Part shown: positions 2,624-27,168 of the stretch, piece after piece
How positions within the stretch are numbered: the stretch's first letter is position 1
Layout: every line of letters starts with the position of its first letter
NCBI GenBank assembly: GCA_013298185.1
Contig: JAAFJQ010000010.1
Coordinates: forward strand, 1 to 36,849
Origin: Deinococcales bacterium
GTDB lineage: Bacteria; Deinococcota; Deinococci; Deinococcales; JAAFIG01
Reading direction: 5' to 3'
Length of the DNA: 36,849 bases
Position numbers and translations under genes: made by a program
Notes under the pieces: generated by a model
What the model saw: the letters and a program-made list of their open reading frames with translations, nothing else
Database searches by the model: none
What the model was told of the DNA's origin: nothing

Positions 2624-3895
2624 CTACTTTAATTTCTTGACCTCTTGGGCAAAGTTTCTTAAGTCTAGCCTACCGCGACCAATTTCTTTTTTGCGATTCG
2701 GATTGAATTTTTCGATGTTAAACGATTTTTCTCTGACTGCCTTACCAAGATCTCGTAAATCTTGATATGGTCTTTCTGCCAGTGCCAATGCCAAACTCGC
2801 TGCAACCATTGGGGCTGCCATCGAAGTACCACTCCAGGCTGCCACACGGTTATCAGGAGCAGGAGCATAAATCAATTCTCCTGGAGCCGACATACCGACA
2901 TCGTCTTTGCCGTAACTCGAGAAACGCGAAAGTTCATCAAATTTATTAACGCTGGTGACACTGATTGCCATGTCTCCCCACCGCCCATTTTTGCCGTTGC
3001 TGCCACAGGCTCGGGCTGGGAAATTCACATCATTATCACCATTGTTGCCACTTGCGGTCACAACAAAAACACCTTTTCGGGTGGCATTATCGAGTGCCAA
3101 GGCTAAAGCGGCTGAGTCGTATGTCCCCAACGAGAGGTTAATGACCTTTGCGCCTTTTTGAACTGCCCAATTGATTGCTGATACGACATCGTCAGAGTCG
3201 CCTGTTCCATTGCCATCCAAAACCCTGAGAGGCATGATTTGAGCTTTTTCTGCAATTTGGGCAATAATCCCAGCAATATTTGTTCCATGTCCGTATGCCT
3301 CGCCCTTGGTTTCTTGAGGCACAGTATCATTGTCCACGAAATCATACCGTTCGGATGGTGCAACCAAACGATTCGCAAAAGCAGGGTGGGTTAAGTCTAT
3401 ACCTGTGTCTATCACAGCAATTTTGACTCCCATACCTCGTTTTGAAAAGCTGGCTTGTGCTTCTGACAAGCCAATTTGTCGCCAAATGTCTTGATTTTGA
3501 CCAGTTTTGAAGACACTGTCTTGACCTGTAGACCACGTAGACCAACCCGTAGACCACGTAGACCAACCCGTAGACCACGTAGACCAGCCTGTTGAGCGCA
3601 CAGGCATACCAAGATCTGTAGCAGCCTTTCTGGTCTCGAGAATTTGCATCACTCGTAAGTTGTTTGACCTGACTGCACCCTGCAAACTCAAACGCTGGTT
3701 GGATTCTTCTCCAACAATGGCTTGTCCAAGTTCTGGATACCAAGCCACCAAGCGGTTGCCGTACATTTCTGGTGTGTCGCCTGATTGAATCGGAACGATC
3801 AGCAGATTCTCAATCTGACTGGTGGTTGGTGTTTGACTGCAAGCAAGGAGACCAAGCGTTAAAGTAAGACCTAAGATTTTTCGGTGGGGTTTCAT
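2624..3895 (-). CDS. Subtilisin-like serine protease (S8), predicted lipoprotein
   Basis: The chosen start at 3895 gives 423 residues beginning MKPHRKILGLTLTLGLLAC, a lipoprotein signal with an LLAC lipobox; AGGAG lies about ten bases upstream. An upstream in-frame start at 3952 would bury this signal. The S8 catalytic motifs are present in order: VIDTGIDLTHP (Asp), HGTNIAG (His) and GTSMAAP (Ser). The mature N-terminus (about residues 25-95) looks like a short propeptide. Between it and the catalytic domain lies a tandem stretch of GWSTWST units encoded by a 21-bp DNA repeat, probably a linker. It is likely an extracytoplasmic protease held on the membrane. Substrate unknown. Very few CTCGAG sites occur in it. 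Confidence 0.9.
   Translation of the reverse strand: MKPHRKILGLTLTLGLLACSQTPTTSQIENLLIVPIQSGDTPEMYGNRLVAWYPELGQAIVGEESNQRLSLQGAVRSNNLRVMQILETRKAATDLGMPVRSTGWSTWSTGWSTWSTGWSTWSTGQDSVFKTGQNQDIWRQIGLSEAQASFSKRGMGVKIAVIDTGIDLTHPAFANRLVAPSERYDFVDNDTVPQETKGEAYGHGTNIAGIIAQIAEKAQIMPLRVLDGNGTGDSDDVVSAINWAVQKGAKVINLSLGTYDSAALALALDNATRKGVFVVTASGNNGDNDVNFPARACGSNGKNGRWGDMAISVTSVNKFDELSRFSSYGKDDVGMSAPGELIYAPAPDNRVAAWSGTSMAAPMVAASLALALAERPYQDLRDLGKAVREKSFNIEKFNPNRKKEIGRGRLDLRNFAQEVKKLK
3528..3590 (-). repeat. Three tandem 21-bp units inside the protease gene
   Basis: Units at 3528-3548, 3549-3569 and 3570-3590. The first two are identical and the third differs at its end. On the minus strand they encode repeated GWSTWST. 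Slippage within the frame would change the linker length by seven residues without breaking the gene. Confidence 0.9.
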
Positions 3896-6741: not shown

Positions 6742-6878
6742 ATGTCATTTTTTAACTCGAGCCGAATGCGTGGTATCAAAAATTCTCGAGAATTGTGTGC
6801 TGTGCAAGCCCAGAACCAACGGATAAATCAAGTTACACATCACCCGAATTAACATTCAAGAAGTATGTCCAGTACAAA

Positions 6879-6913
6879 TTTTCTCTTTCCTCTTTTTTCT
6901 TTTCTCTTTCCTC
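6879..6913 (+). repeat. Five pyrimidine heptads (TTTYYTC) in the pyrG leader
   Basis: TTTTCTC, TTTCCTC, TTTTTTC, TTTTCTC and TTTCCTC follow one another in exact seven-base phase. The tract lies just before a GNRA-type hairpin and the pyrG ribosome site. Similar heptads occur at 17377-17453, 19801-19983 and 22399-22426. Confidence 0.75.
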
Positions 6914-6914
6914 T

Positions 6915-6928
6915 GGGTCGCAAGACCC
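6915..6928 (+). promoter_or_regulatory. GNRA tetraloop hairpin upstream of pyrG
   Basis: GGGTC-GCAA-GACCC is a perfect five-pair stem closed by a GCAA tetraloop, about ten bases before the AGGAG site of pyrG. It could shape ribosome access. No T run follows, so it is not an intrinsic terminator. Confidence 0.55.
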
Positions 6929-6949: not shown

Positions 6950-8575
6950 ATGAAATATATTTTTGTCACAGGTGGCGTTGTTTCAAGTCTTGGTAAAGGC
7001 ATCACCGCCAGCAGTCTAGGGGCAATTCTTCGCGCTCGAGGTCATAAAGTTACAGCCGTAAAAATAGACCCGTACATCAACTTAGATGCTGGCACAATGC
7101 GCCCTTATGAACACGGCGAAGTCTTTGTGACGGGCGACGGCGCAGAAACCGACCTTGACCTTGGCAATTACGAGCGTTTCTTGGATATTGATACAACTCG
7201 CAGCAGTAACATCACCACGGGGCAAGTCTATAAAACTGTGATTGAACGTGAACGCAAAGGCGAGTATTTAAGCCAAACGGTGCAAGTCATTCCGCATATC
7301 ACCGATGAAATCAAAAATCGCATTCGAGCCGTGGCAGTGGCAGCCAACGCCGACATCTGCGTGGTCGAGGTCGGCGGCACAGTCGGCGATATTGAATCCC
7401 TGCCGTTTCTCGAGGCGATTCGCACCATGCGCTTTGATGAGGCTTACGAAAATACGGCGTATTTGCATGTCACACTTGCACCCGAAGTCAGCACTGGCGA
7501 AATCAAGACCAAACCCACGCAGCACAGCGTGGCGCAACTTCGCAGCACAGGCATTTCACCAGATTTTATTGTGGTGCGCTCAAGTACCGAAATGGGCGAA
7601 GAAATGCGTCGCAAAATTGCGCTCTTTACCAGCGTTGAGCCAGAGCGGGTGTACTCGAGTTACAACGTCGAATTTTTGTACGAAGTGCCTTTAGCATTTG
7701 AAGAACAAGGCTTGGGGCGCGAAATCGAGAAGCGCCTAAAACTCGAGACCATCCCGCCAAGCCTTGGCTTTTGGCACGATGCGGTCAAAAAACAACGCCA
7801 GCCAGCTTTTGAAGTGAACATTGGATTCGTGGGCAAGTATGTAGCCATGGGCGATAGTTACTTATCTATCTTAGAGGGTTTACGCCACGCAGGGATTCAC
7901 AACGATTGCAAAGTCAACATTCACTGGGTCAACGCCGAAGACCTGAAATCCGAAGAGGATGCCAAAAACGCCCTCGAGAACTTGGATGGCATTCTGGTTG
8001 GACCCGGCTTTGGAATGCGCGGTATCGAAGGCAAAATTCTGGCAGCCAAATATGCTCGCATTCAGCAAAAACCATATTTTGGCATTTGCTTGGGTCTGCA
8101 AATCGCGGTGATTGAATTTGCTCGCCACAAAGCCATGCTGGACGGTGCAAACAGCACCGAATTTGACCAGTACGCCCGTCATCCTGTGATTGGCTTAATG
8201 CCCGAACAACTCGAGACTGAAGATTTAGGCGGCACAATGCGCCTTGGAGACTGGGAAATGACCATTCAAGCTGGCACACGGCTCGAGAAAGTCTACGGCA
8301 CAGCTGGCACGGTTCTCGAGCGGCACCGGCATCGGTACGAAGTCAACCCCGATTATGTGCAGCGTCTGGTTGAAGCTGGATTGGTGGTCAGTGCAGTCAC
8401 ACCGGGCAAGGCACAGCGCGGCGCGGGATTGGTCGAAGCCATTGAATTAAATGACCACCCATTTTTTGTGGCACTGCAATCACATCCAGAGTTTAAGTCT
8501 CGTCCCATGCGGGTTTCACCGCCGTTCAAAGCATTTATAACTGCTGCCCTCGAGGCTCGTCAAAAAAGCACTTGA
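6950..8575 (+). CDS. pyrG: CTP synthase
   Basis: A 541-residue enzyme that aminates UTP to CTP using ATP and glutamine. The N-terminal synthetase domain starts MKYIFVTGGVVSSLGKGI with its P-loop and includes the UTP/CTP-binding segments around ESLPFLEAIR and STGEIKTKPTQHSV. The C-terminal class I glutamine amidotransferase domain has the nucleophile in FGICLGLQ (Cys near residue 379) and the HPEFKSRP His-Glu pair near residue 508. Full length. The ATG has AGGAG six bases upstream, unlike the many leaderless genes here. The 274-bp upstream region carries a promoter, a terminator-like hairpin, a heptad tract and a tetraloop hairpin, so expression is probably controlled in the leader. Confidence 0.96.
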   Translation: MKYIFVTGGVVSSLGKGITASSLGAILRARGHKVTAVKIDPYINLDAGTMRPYEHGEVFVTGDGAETDLDLGNYERFLDIDTTRSSNITTGQVYKTVIERERKGEYLSQTVQVIPHITDEIKNRIRAVAVAANADICVVEVGGTVGDIESLPFLEAIRTMRFDEAYENTAYLHVTLAPEVSTGEIKTKPTQHSVAQLRSTGISPDFIVVRSSTEMGEEMRRKIALFTSVEPERVYSSYNVEFLYEVPLAFEEQGLGREIEKRLKLETIPPSLGFWHDAVKKQRQPAFEVNIGFVGKYVAMGDSYLSILEGLRHAGIHNDCKVNIHWVNAEDLKSEEDAKNALENLDGILVGPGFGMRGIEGKILAAKYARIQQKPYFGICLGLQIAVIEFARHKAMLDGANSTEFDQYARHPVIGLMPEQLETEDLGGTMRLGDWEMTIQAGTRLEKVYGTAGTVLERHRHRYEVNPDYVQRLVEAGLVVSAVTPGKAQRGAGLVEAIELNDHPFFVALQSHPEFKSRPMRVSPPFKAFITAALEARQKST

Positions 8576-16401: not shown

Positions 16402-17376
16402 ATGGAAGCATTTATTTTTATTGGTGTGTTGGTAATCGTTGGTTTTTGGATTTTGTTTAGTGTGATTCCAACAGGTTTGTGGATTTCAGCACTGGCAAGC
16501 GGTGTGATGGTTGGTTTGCCAAGTCTGATTGGTATGCGTTTGCGGCGGGTTGCTCCTGCTCGAATCATTTATCCACTGATTAAAGCCCGCAAAGCTGGTC
16601 TGCCAGATGTGTTGCAGAACAACCTCGAGGCGCACTTTTTGGCTGGCGGTAACGTGGACAAAGTTGTGGATGCCCTGATTGCAGCTGGCAAAGCCGGTAT
16701 CCCCCTGACTTTCGAGCAAGCCACCGCGATTGACCTTGCTGGGCGCGATGTGCTGGATGCGGTGCGTGTCTCGGTCAACCCAAAAGTGATTCAAACGCCA
16801 ATGGTTACGGGTATGGCACAAGATGGTATTCAGTTGCTTGCCACGGCTCGTATCACGGTGCGTGTGAAAATTGACCGACTTGTCGGTGGTGCTGGTGAAG
16901 AAACGATCATCGCTCGAGTCGGCGAAGGTATCGTGGCTGCAATCGGTGCTGCCCAAGACCACAAAGCGGTTCTCGAGCAACCCGATATTATCTCCAAGAC
17001 CACGCTTGCCAAAGGCTTAGACGCTGGTACTGCTTTCGAGATTCTTTCGATTGACATTGCCGAAGTGGATGTTGGTAAGAACATCGGCGCACAGCTCAAG
17101 ACCGACCAAGCCGAAGCCGAAAAGCGTGTAGCTCAAGCCAAAGCCGAAGAACGCCGCGCCATGGCGGTTGCGGTTGAACAAGAAATGCAGGCTCGAGTCC
17201 AAGAAATGCGTGCCAAAGTGGTTGAAGCCGAATCCCAAGTGCCACTGGCACTGGCGGAAGCCTTTAAGAGCGGCAAACTTGGCGTCATGGATTACTACAA
17301 CATGCAGAACCTCCAAGCCGACACCAGTATGCGTGGTGCGATTTCCGAATCAGCCAAACGCGATGCGAGTAAGTAA
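16402..17376 (+). CDS. floA: Flotillin-like protein FloA
   Basis: A 324-residue membrane scaffold protein of the FloA/YqfA type. A hydrophobic N-terminal hairpin (about residues 3-45) anchors it to the inner face of the membrane. An SPFH-like core follows, with [20 protein letters not shown] and [21 protein letters not shown] Glu-Ala-Lys-rich coiled coil covers about 220-290 ([15 protein letters not shown]). The strong GAGGAGG site seven bases before the ATG contrasts with the leaderless genes around it. Partners in the family are the NfeD proteases, and one is encoded directly upstream. The following gene encodes an anchored protein of unknown function that may belong to the same unit. Confidence 0.93.
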
Positions 17377-17453
17377 GAGAGGAAAGGTAAAAGAGAAAAG
17401 AGAAAAGTAGGAAATTACTTTGACCTTTCATCTTTTCTCTTTCTTCTTCCGCC
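17377..17453. repeat. Heptad repeat tract: purine heptads then pyrimidine heptads
   Basis: From the base after the floA stop, GAGAGGA, AAGGTAA, AAGAGAA, AAGAGAA and AAGTAGG, then AAATTAC, then TTTGACC, TTTCATC, TTTTCTC, TTTCTTC and TTCCGCC follow in seven-base phase. The two halves are partly complementary (GAGAAAAG with CTTTTCTC) and could fold as a long hairpin before the next gene. Confidence 0.7.
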
Positions 17454-18470: not shown

Positions 18471-18496
18471 AACCTCTGCCTAAGCAGAGGTTTTTT
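18471..18496. terminator. Terminator of tRNA-Ala, overlapping the end of the BTAD-like gene
   Basis: AACCTCTGC (18471-18479) and GCAGAGGTT (18484-18492) form a nine-pair stem with loop CTAA, followed by six T on the plus strand. The 3' arm and T run are also the last codons of the minus-strand gene, whose TAG stop falls in the loop. Confidence 0.85.
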
Positions 18497-19772
18497 GCTT
18501 CAACACTTCAAGCAGATGTTGGGCTTGTTGCTCGAGCCGAGGAACTTGTTGACTTCTTGCCAGCTCAAGCGCTTCCTGGGCAAGTTCAGCATCTTGGTCT
18601 TTTTCGGCAACCAGTAATAAAGTGCGTAACAACAAAGGCTGATGGGTCACAGTTCGAGCCTCCGCCAAGGCATTACGGGCAAAACTGCCGATGTTGGTGA
18701 TCGCAAATAGGGACATCAAAGCTCGAATTGTAGCGGTTGAATCTTTGGCACTGCGGGCGCTTTTGAAGGCGCGTTCTGCCATCTCGAGGGCTTTTTGTTT
18801 AGCGCCCCATATGGCATGAGCATGGGCTAAAACAGCAAAAGTTAAAGCGTTGGCATCTTCGCCCAGCACTTCGGCAATGCCAATGGCTTGACCAAGAGCA
18901 ATCACAGCCCCTTTGGGTTCTTTGTTTTCCAAAATAGCTTGTTGCAGCAGCGCTTCGCCAATGATTGTTTTGGCGCTCATGGCAAGAAAACCATCTTCAT
19001 GTTCTCGAGCGCTGACAAAGGCTTGTTCGGCTGCCTGAATGGCTTCTGTAAACCGCTCGAGGTAACACAAGGCATTGGCACGGTGCAGCAGCGCCCAGCC
19101 CTCAGACATACCACTTGGTAAGGTTTCTAAGGCGTTCAGGGAATCCTGCAAACGCCCAAGGCGCACAAGGGCGGCAGCGTAATTGACCGAAGCCTCGTGT
19201 TGGGCTTCTGGCTCGAGCAAAGGCAGTGCAGCTTCAAAGGTTTGTGCCGCTTCTACAATTCGTTTGCGCCGCCAACGAAACTGACCCAGCTCTAAGCCCA
19301 GCAAACCCGCGAACCGAGGCTCGAGTTTTTGCTGCTCGTTTTCTACAAACAAAACATTTTTTTGGGCTTCTTCTGTTTTGCCAGATTCCTCGAGCAGCAC
19401 TGCATTTTCGAGCAAGGCTCTTAAGAAAATCCGCCGCAAATCAAAGCGTTCAGCCTCGAGCCAAGTTTCAAAATCTGGGTTTCCTTTAGGTAGATTAGGT
19501 GCAAAATCAGCTTTTAATTGATGCAAGGCTTTTAAGTTGTCGCTGTTGGCGCGGTAAGCCAACACATCCGAAGCACACTCCAGCCGCCACTTTCCAGCCA
19601 CCTGCTCGAGGTACGGGGCAAATTCGCTAAATTCACTGGGCAGATTCTCGAGTTGGATTGGTTTATCGCTCGCTGCCAGTCGCACCAACACTGGCAACAA
19701 ATCTAGTGCTGGTTCAACCACCCGATCATCTATTCTAAATTCAATCTTTCCAAGCAAGCTCACCGATAACAT
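18480..19772 (-). CDS. BTAD-like TPR protein (SARP-related, degenerate N-terminus)
   Basis: A 430-residue helical protein. The N-terminus MLSVSLLGKIEFRIDDRVVE has the strand pattern that opens SARP/BTAD regulators, but the winged-helix DNA-binding part is short and degenerate. The motif FETWLEAERFDLRR near residue 118 is typical of the bacterial transcriptional activator domain, and the rest (about 130-425) is a chain of TPR-like helices. It may be a regulator that has lost or reduced DNA binding, or a pure TPR scaffold. The frame extends to 19850 into a repeat tract. The ATG at 19772 is chosen because a TACCAT box stands six bases before it. The last codons run through the tRNA-Ala terminator. 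Confidence 0.65.
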   Translation of the reverse strand: MLSVSLLGKIEFRIDDRVVEPALDLLPVLVRLAASDKPIQLENLPSEFSEFAPYLEQVAGKWRLECASDVLAYRANSDNLKALHQLKADFAPNLPKGNPDFETWLEAERFDLRRIFLRALLENAVLLEESGKTEEAQKNVLFVENEQQKLEPRFAGLLGLELGQFRWRRKRIVEAAQTFEAALPLLEPEAQHEASVNYAAALVRLGRLQDSLNALETLPSGMSEGWALLHRANALCYLERFTEAIQAAEQAFVSAREHEDGFLAMSAKTIIGEALLQQAILENKEPKGAVIALGQAIGIAEVLGEDANALTFAVLAHAHAIWGAKQKALEMAERAFKSARSAKDSTATIRALMSLFAITNIGSFARNALAEARTVTHQPLLLRTLLLVAEKDQDAELAQEALELARSQQVPRLEQQAQHLLEVLKQKTSA

Positions 19773-19778
19773 GCTGTG

Positions 19779-19784
19779 ATGGTA
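19779..19784 (-). promoter_or_regulatory. -10 box of a leaderless promoter (BTAD-like gene)
   Basis: TACCAT on the minus strand ends six bases before the ATG at 19772. Confidence 0.4.
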
Positions 19785-19800
19785 CAACGGTAGAAGGGTC

Positions 19801-19898
19801 AAAGATGAAGGACGAAAGACAAAGGACGAAAGACGAAGGACGAAAAACAAAGGACGAAAGACGAAGGACGAAAGACGAAGGACGAAGGACGAAAGACG
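19801..19898 (+). repeat. Fourteen tandem heptanucleotides AARRACG
   Basis: Fourteen heptads in unbroken phase, mostly alternating AAAGACG and AAGGACG, so that a 14-bp dimer period is visible. Variants are AAAGATG, AAAGACA and AAAAACA. The tract lies between the divergent BTAD-like and zinc-ribbon genes. It encodes nothing likely; an open frame running through it on the minus strand is an artefact of the repeat. Confidence 0.95.
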
Positions 19899-19909
19899 AA
19901 GGCAACCAA

Positions 19910-19933
19910 CTTTTTACCTTTTGACCTTTTTAC
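19910..19933 (+). repeat. Three tandem octanucleotides CTTTTKAC
   Basis: CTTTTTAC, CTTTTGAC and CTTTTTAC abut one another between the two heptad blocks. Confidence 0.8.
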
Positions 19934-19934
19934 C

Positions 19935-19983
19935 CTCATAGCTCATAGCTCATAGCTCACAGCTCGTAGCTCATAGCCCATCG
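19935..19983 (+). repeat. Seven tandem heptanucleotides CTCATAG
   Basis: Seven heptads in phase: CTCATAG three times, CTCACAG, CTCGTAG, CTCATAG and CCCATCG. This second heptad family has a different sequence from the first, 37 bp away. Confidence 0.9.
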
Positions 19984-20045
19984 CCCAAACCTATTTGAAC
20001 CACAGTACTTTTAGCAGTCACTGGCAATTTAGGTCTAAAAATGTG

Positions 20046-20051
20046 TACGAT
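20046..20051 (+). promoter_or_regulatory. -10 box that sets the zinc-ribbon gene start
   Basis: TACGAT ends six bases before the GTG at 20058, downstream of a longer in-frame start at 19995. Confidence 0.5.
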
Positions 20052-20057
20052 AGGGAT

Positions 20058-20759
20058 GTGAACGCGCTCGAACTCCTCGGCACGATTCAAGCGATGGACT
20101 TGGATTTAGACAAGCTACGACTTGACGAAGATAGTATTCCCGGAGAACTAAAAGCCGCTCGGGACGATAAAATCAGGCTTAATCAGCAACTCGAGAAGCT
20201 GCGCTTAGAACACTTGGCGGTGCGACGTAAACTCGGTGAAGCTGAACTCGAGTTGGCTTCCTTGGGTGAGCAACTGAAACGCGCTGAACACGATCAGCAG
20301 CATTCGAGCAGCGCCAAGGAACAGGGACAGTATGCCAGTCGGGTGGTTTCGTTGCGTGGCGAAATCAATGATTTAACCGATGACACCTTGCCGCTGACCG
20401 AAAAGTTAGACGACTTAAACACTCAAATCGAAGAAATCGGCATTGCGTTGGATGAATTAGAACCAAAACTCGAGCATTTGGAAAGTTTGGACGATGACCG
20501 CATCAAAGAACTGCAAAAACAATTCTTAGAACAACAAGCCAAGCGCAATGCCGTATCCGCCAACCTCGATGAAAAAGTCTTAAAAGAATACGACCAAGTG
20601 CGAAAATCCAAAAAAGGCATTGGTTTTGTCAAGGTTGTGGCTGGCAAATGTGGTGGTTGCAAAGTGCAACTCACACCTAATCTGGTGCAGCGCATTCGGG
20701 CGGGGCAATTTCCAGTCAAATGCCAATCTTGTGGGCGGATTCTAGCGCCTTCGGTTTAA
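20058..20759 (+). CDS. Coiled-coil protein with C4-type zinc ribbon
   Basis: A 233-residue protein. Residues about 5-180 are a long antiparallel coiled coil (heptads of Leu, Glu, Lys and Arg). The C-terminus carries a four-cysteine zinc ribbon, CGGCKVQLTP and CQSCGRIL. This is a conserved bacterial family often annotated as a C4-type zinc ribbon protein, of uncertain nucleic-acid-related function. The frame opens at 19995, but the GTG at 20058 is chosen because TACGAT stands six bases before it and the resulting N-terminus NALELLGTIQAMDLDLDKL fits the family length. It heads an operon with the GNAT gene (4 bp gap) and a small membrane-protein gene. Confidence 0.8.
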   Translation: MNALELLGTIQAMDLDLDKLRLDEDSIPGELKAARDDKIRLNQQLEKLRLEHLAVRRKLGEAELELASLGEQLKRAEHDQQHSSSAKEQGQYASRVVSLRGEINDLTDDTLPLTEKLDDLNTQIEEIGIALDELEPKLEHLESLDDDRIKELQKQFLEQQAKRNAVSANLDEKVLKEYDQVRKSKKGIGFVKVVAGKCGGCKVQLTPNLVQRIRAGQFPVKCQSCGRILAPSV

Positions 20760-22398: not shown

Positions 22399-22426
22399 TT
22401 TCTCTTTTACCTTTTTCCTTTCCTCT
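22399..22426 (+). repeat. Four pyrimidine heptads between convergent genes
   Basis: TTTCTCT, TTTACCT, TTTTCCT and TTCCTCT in seven-base phase, in the 40-bp spacer between the TPR gene and the channel gene. The tract continues as imperfect pyrimidine sequence to about 22441. Confidence 0.6.
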
Positions 22427-27095: not shown

Positions 27096-27168
27096 CATGA
27101 GTTCCATTGTCCTCGATGACATGAGTTCCCGTATCCTCGATGACATGAGTTCCCGTATCCTCGAGGCG
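27096..27168. repeat. Three tandem 24-bp repeats between two genes
   Basis: Units at 27096-27119, 27120-27143 and 27144-27168, each starting CATGAGTTCC and ending in CCTCGA plus a few bases. The last two share CATGAGTTCCCGTATCCTCGA, shown in two parts as CATGAGTTCC and CGTATCCTCGA. A fourth unit starts with CATGAG at 27169 and breaks off. The third unit contains a full CTCGAG where the others have CTCGAT. Not a CRISPR array: there are no unique spacers. Confidence 0.9.

Follow-up and report, generated by a model that had tools for sequence, protein, structure and literature searches.

The tandem arrays at positions 19801-19983 of the window, by which we mean the whole analysed stretch of 36,849 nucleotides (an entire contig of a 4.41-Mb, 457-contig assembly), probably together make up a single copy of a non-coding element that is dispersed through the intergenic DNA, with copies related by common descent and with arms that vary in length by slippage. 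This species has many copies of the element, its congener few. It is a previously undescribed variant of the dispersed intergenic heptameric repeats of bacteria.

The heptad arrays in the window are genuine and in exact phase (Table 1). TRF describes the purine array (19801-19900) with a period of 7 (14.3 copies, score 123) or alternatively of 14 (7.1 copies, score 158), the octamers with a period of 8 (3.1 copies, 19910-19934), and the CTCATAG array with a period of 7 (6.7 copies, 19935-19981). The first-pass annotation had described fourteen AARRACG heptads with an alternating 14-bp dimer, three CTTTTKAC octamers and seven CTCATAG heptads, which together were said to fill the spacer between two divergent genes. 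Its unit numbers stand when the arrays are read in register, but the units are less uniform than it implied. Among the 14 purine heptads, 11 are exact, the exceptions being AAAGATG, AAAGACA and AAAAACA. The CTCATAG-type units (19935-19983) are exact in 4 of 7 cases, and the last one, CCCATCG, is two bases off. All three octamers (19910-19933) fit their consensus. The third base, by alternating between A and G, gives rise to the dimer; this pattern is kept over 12 units and is broken once thereafter, with AAGGACG twice running at 19878 and 19885. The arrays do lie in the divergent spacer, but take up 183 of the ~285 bp between the minus-strand gene start at 19772 and the plus-strand gene start at ~20058, for which the start codon was inferred from conservation.

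Table 1. Coordinates of the arrays, the core and the flanking genes in the window
Feature	Position	Strand	Description	Basis
Left flanking gene	18480-19772	-	430 aa; sole domain match is a sub-threshold TPR; orthologues in G001, G002 and G003	
P arm	19801-19898	-	14 heptads; AAAGACG/AAGGACG alternating on +, CTTTCGT/CCTTCGT on -	TRF, in-register reading, lag spectrum
Core between arms	19899-19909	-	TTGGTTGCCTT on -	Alignment with C23, C68, C86, C95 and C301 copies
Octamer module	19910-19934	-	CTTTTKAC x3; GGTNAAAA on -	TRF; sister elements with 1-3 copies
A arm	19935-19983	-	7 CTCATAG-type heptads, CTATGAG on -; outward end GCCCA	TRF
Right flanking gene	20058-20759	+	CT398-type coiled coil with C4 zinc ribbon (PF24481, PF02591)	

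Over stretches of 90 bases, lag-7 identity peaks at 0.80 in the window, whereas none of 200 dinucleotide shuffles of the whole sequence exceeds 0.50, and the CTCATAG stretch reaches 0.86, compared with at most 0.48 in 500 shuffles of the same stretch. The octamer run alone (0.88) is matched by the best of 200 window-wide shuffles and is not clearly above chance; it gains credibility only from sister copies, in which these octamers are found again. The purine array contains 14- and 28-bp higher-order repeats, and its self-identity is 0.92 at lag 28, 0.90 at lag 14 and 0.80 at lag 7. The maxima at 28 and 14 argue that duplicated blocks of two and four units account for at least part of the growth of the array. 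The exact phase had originally been attributed to replication slippage or to a templated process with a seven-base step. The 14- and 28-bp blocks favour the former, or unequal exchange, over templating unit by unit. No RVT_1 reverse transcriptase domain was found in the genome, and telomerase-like as well as DGR or retron templating was rejected on this ground.

Further heptad arrays of the same purine/pyrimidine vocabulary (AAAGAGA, AAAGGTA, AAAGAGG) are present in the window at 6878-6915, 17373-17414 and 22399-22421, the first of them ~35 bp upstream of a CTP synthase-like gene at 6950. A 21-bp tandem repeat at 3524-3586 lies in frame in a subtilase gene and encodes GWSTWST heptapeptides, and a 24-bp tandem repeat (27096-27164, 2.9 copies, 93% matches) occupies a spacer between two minus-strand genes.

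That the arrays belong together is suggested by their arrangement. We distinguish four classes, A5 (CTATGAG), P5 (purine), P3 (pyrimidine) and A3 (CTCATAG), the fine anatomy of which was studied in 0.90 Mb of the 4.41-Mb genome, a sample picked in part for CTCATAG matches. In the sampled clusters, all 28 pairs of unlike arrays, with one same-type pair excluded, have a fixed order (5'-type before 3'-type, or outer 5' arm before inner), and none is reversed. Genome-wide, CTATGAG is followed by CTCATAG within 30 bp at 10 loci, and the opposite polarity does not occur. The fixed order therefore indicates that the arrays belong, as modules, to an element with a nested and imperfectly palindromic structure. 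Its ideal plan, read on one strand, is (CTATGAG)n, a purine arm (GGTTAAAA octamers or AAAGNNN heptads), the core, a pyrimidine arm (NNNCTTT or CCTTCGT) and (CTCATAG)n. Most copies lack one or more of these arms, and most arrays are single-armed. The window copy, on the minus strand, has the structure A5-P5-core-P3 and is without the terminal CTCATAG (A3) arm. The outer end of the A arms is GGGC/GCCC; GCCC forms the outward end of 30 of 50 A arrays, compared with ~9% CCC-type among middle units. Arrays of the AAGGACG type repeatedly have AAGGCAA as their innermost unit.

The core TAAAAGTGGT..CCTTC is found at exactly four loci (C23, C68, C86 and C95), with no match for the reversed control, and variants of it occur in the window and at C301. 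The window core is a variant of the TAAAAGTGGTTTG..GCCTTC core of the sister copies. When the six copies are aligned, CTATGAG heptads, GGTTAAAA octamers, the core and CCTTCGTC-type heptads (CTTTCCT at C301) follow each other in a common order, with unrelated outer flanks and differing repeat numbers. The copies at C23 and C86 have a common extra core insert of ~60 bp despite their different repeat numbers. The words of the P arm recur at C23, C131, C165 and C446, and also at C68 and C95. As judged from the alignment, the six core-bearing copies are related by common descent from one composite element and not by coincidence.

Heptad arrays are a habit of the whole genome, so that the reading of the window arrays as a one-off event fails. 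The genome contains 256 CTCATAG doublets with at most one mismatch, compared with a single match for the reversed control. Perfect CTCATAG doublets occur at 53 distinct places by hand count, and AARRACG triplets at five. Exact tandem runs of periods 4-11, defined by a minimum of 14 bases that match at the given lag, were counted in 901 kb of the species' own DNA, the sample picked in part for CTCATAG matches; 36 have period 7, and each of the periods 4-6 and 8-11 has none. The commonest words in these runs are AGCTATG (of the CTCATAG class), AAAAGAG, AAAGCTC, AAAGAGG and AAGGACG. In stretches chosen irrespective of matches, TRF finds 5 period-7 arrays in 268 kb of own DNA (20 stretches) and 1 in 400 kb of the congener. 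The P units have the form AA(A/G)G+NNN, with positions 1, 2 and 4 fixed in at least 98%, A or G at position 3, and variable tails, a positional conservation that is partly by construction, as the phase was set on AAAG/AAGG. Separate from the heptads are a ~180-bp MITE-like dispersed repeat that is 93-100% identical between spacers (L065:4693-4985, L076:3946-4201, L078:15084-15449, L258:7224-7596, L203:4578-4833), and another repeat family of ~250 bp with 82-85% identity (L064, L194, L197, L253, L258).

Among the genomes compared, the element is abundant in one species. A search of 111 genomes of the phylum gave 256 CTCATAG doublets in the own genome but just 3 in the congener; two other family members have none, and no remaining genome has more than 10. 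Lag-7 arrays give the same picture, with 72 in 0.90 Mb of own DNA, 6 in 1.2 Mb of the congener and 0 in 0.36 Mb of the two other family members. The family genomes compared were G001, G002 and G003 (the congener and the two other family members), with about a quarter of G001 covered. In the congener, the few arrays are built to the same plan, with one pair of CTATGAG and CTCATAG arms as well as purine/pyrimidine pairs, and the element type is therefore probably older than the split between the two species, with a later expansion in this one. Seven array-bearing junctions are syntenic in the congener, and several of these are clearly free of the element there; element-free sites include C1:55.9 kb, C23:1958 (184 bp here, 39 in the congener) and C83. 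At the junction C4:2553 (L063:2527-2627), a CTATGAG/CTCATAG hairpin in this species corresponds to a purine/pyrimidine heptad hairpin in the congener (L284 near 15142), at the same position between the same pair of genes. This recalls the tRNA-Leu introns of Nostoc, in which repeats of class I and class II are swapped. Arrays are not significantly enriched at synteny breakpoints, and the tendency is the opposite (syntenic: 8 of 25 array junctions, compared with 21 of 120, p 0.11). For the window itself, the flanking genes are not adjacent in any of G001, G002 and G003, and the junction can therefore not be scored for an element-free site. Upstream of the congener's orthologue of the plus-strand gene there are no heptads.

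The array comes to within ~30 bp of the start codon of the minus-strand gene. On the other side, a TACGAT located 10-15 bp ahead of the start of the plus-strand gene is conserved in the congener and is possibly the -10 element of that gene. Because of this proximity and the conserved TACGAT, the array may affect the expression of the flanking genes. A coding reading of the array, as part of an ORF at 18480-19850 starting from TTG, was ruled out by the ATG at 19772, which is the conserved start. A search of 19600-20200 for intrinsic terminators, with a GC stem and a subsequent T run, found none. An Rfam search of 19500-20300 gave nothing above the gathering score, with one snoRNA match far under threshold and no group I intron.

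The heptads had been placed in a cyanobacterial context by the first-pass annotation, which saw an iterated palindrome as a second trait of that phylum. The palindrome is indeed present. It is CTCGAG, which occurs 225 times in the window. Its density is practically the same in coding DNA (6.26 per kb) and between genes (6.27 per kb), and in coding DNA it is found in all three frames with frame 0 favoured. All four family genomes contain it at 5.7-6.5 per kb, ~20-29 times the expectation from base composition. The cyanobacterial framing itself is not supported. HIP1 (GCGATCGC) occurs once in the window, and CTCGAG is a HIP-like palindrome, not HIP1, outside cyanobacteria. The assembly contains no 16S rRNA, and the best plasmid relatives of the window subtilase are from Deinococcus; the host probably belongs to a Deinococcota lineage and not to the Cyanobacteria. 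Moreover, heptamer arrays have been reported outside cyanobacteria (PMC4692102, PMC4679880).

As a mechanism, we propose that the arms change length in whole units (7, 14 or 28 bp) by replication slippage or unequal recombination, and that copies reach new sites by some copying step, which may be mobilisation in trans, or recombination or template switching between arrays. The same words, order and core at unrelated loci are not explained by slippage site by site, and a dispersal step is therefore needed. Elements would be tolerated mainly where they do little harm, i.e. between codirectional genes, and two-armed copies could form hairpins in mRNA. The element is probably selfish or neutral. 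No mobilising enzyme could be tied to the family, and no target-site duplication was noticed by eye. A RAYT/REP origin was considered and rejected, since the single Y1_Tnp match of the genome is an IS200-like gene with no heptads within the flanks read. Phage spread was also rejected, with just 3 and 1 viral contigs containing the words.

The alternative that fares best dispenses with element and dispersal, and has each array born locally by slippage, the polymerase footprint giving preference to steps of 7 bp. In many bacteria, no long SSR unit is commoner than the heptamer, for which a speculative cause in the contact length of the polymerase has been proposed, as cited in PMC4692102 and PMC4679880. 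An exact search for three CTCATAG units returned at least 100 stretches in very different phyla, often beside sibling AGCT+NNN words, and with an inverted partner in 1 of 116 among the matches listed (L080-L184). Independent birth of the same word is therefore clearly possible. In 783 kb of foreign DNA away from the matches, from genomes selected for having a heptad array, there are 28 runs of period 7 compared with 0-4 at other periods. Even a viral contig (IMGVR_UViG_3300032007_000578, L313:12327-12389, near the contig end) has an AAGGACG-type array, with the similar variant units CTTTCGT and TTTTCGT also present. Many single-arm arrays of the genome could indeed be independent local events. 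As a general account, however, local slippage appears unlikely to us, as it leaves unexplained the 28-to-0 module order, the core that six copies share, the outer end that many A arrays have in common, and the concentration of few words in one species. The CTCATAG word and the period of 7 thus recur broadly, whereas the composite element seems peculiar to this lineage.

Paired heptad arms could also be kept as functional stem-loops of mRNAs, for termination, processing or stability. The folds of the two-armed A5-A3 copies are much more stable than those of shuffles (z -4.7 to -11.3), and the presence of one hairpin here and another in the congener at C4:2553 also speaks for such a role. The P copies fold variably (z +1.0 to -4.7), and mixed copies fold no better than shuffles. 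The window copy is no better than shuffles on either strand (z -0.01 and +0.81) and has no terminator-like site. Arms of the same copy pair no better than arms of different copies (p 0.68 and 0.96), and there is therefore no sign of selection on pairing. With the majority of arrays single-armed in addition, we consider selection for RNA hairpins quite improbable.

About as doubtful is a dedicated process with a seven-nucleotide step, by enzymatic extension or specific template switching, which would build arrays from preferred words such as AGCT+NNN and AAAG+NNN in many phyla and be hyperactive here. If true, it would explain both the exclusive period 7 in this genome and the same words in unrelated phyla.

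The setting of the arrays relative to genes bears on the last alternative. According to a simple gene caller, 59 of 85 clusters lie between codirectional, 10 between convergent and 7 between divergent genes, and 9 are intragenic. It is very improbable that a regulator which binds DNA or RNA recognises the heptads in 7-base steps near gene starts, as proposed for the TAACTGA heptamers of Beggiatoaceae (PMC4679880): the regular phase and the extension of the window array towards the minus-strand start codon would fit, but two unrelated words (CTCATAG and AAAGNNN) behave alike, single arms have no clear orientation bias relative to genes (A3 11, A5 9, P3 16, P5 9), and divergent spacers, the minority setting to which the window copy belongs, are under-used (7 of 76 compared with 109 of 530, p 0.019).

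Several known repeats resemble the dispersed element. The closest parallels are the dispersed heptameric intergenic repeats GGGAATC and GGGGA(C/T)T of Xanthomonas and Nostoc (PMC4692102), which likewise are degenerate heptamers with a fixed core, dispersed, mostly intergenic, with many inverted (convergent) pairs, and found mostly in codirectional spacers, with few between divergent genes, as reported for Xanthomonas. They differ in having one G-rich, G-quadruplex-capable word, whereas here several words form a composite nested element with a common core, and the purine and CTCATAG units have no GGG runs. The TAACTGA direct repeats of Beggiatoaceae, Cyanobacteria and Bacteroidetes, for which no transfer mechanism is known, similarly reach high numbers in a single species and turn up here and there in phyla that are not related (PMC4679880). 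However, they are usually located directly before start codons and have essentially no inverted sets, whereas inverted pairs are common here and single arms have no clear orientation bias. Cyanobacterial STRR are likewise degenerate heptad arrays at many loci, but the host here is probably not a cyanobacterium. Degenerate heptads are also found in P6b of Nostoc tRNA-Leu introns, where they occupy both sides of the stem, vary by whole units, and can be replaced in place by another class (PMC4476775); the window arrays, in contrast, lie between genes and outside any group I intron. Finally, REP, BIME and REPIN sequences are likewise dispersed, intergenic, palindromic, multi-copy and hairpin-capable. 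Unlike these, the element has arms that are tandem arrays of variable length, no GTAG/CGTC-tagged palindrome of 20-40 bp, and no RAYT found with it.

The joint occurrence of heptad arrays and a highly iterated palindrome is thus not confined to cyanobacteria. A genome in which all sampled exact arrays have period 7, with two unrelated word classes in one element and few copies in the congener, amounts to a clean natural experiment. It separates growth in units by slippage from spread between sites, and offers for comparison both occupied and element-free sites as well as one junction at which the word class has been swapped. The element family is therefore a good test case for the frequent sevens in bacterial repeats.
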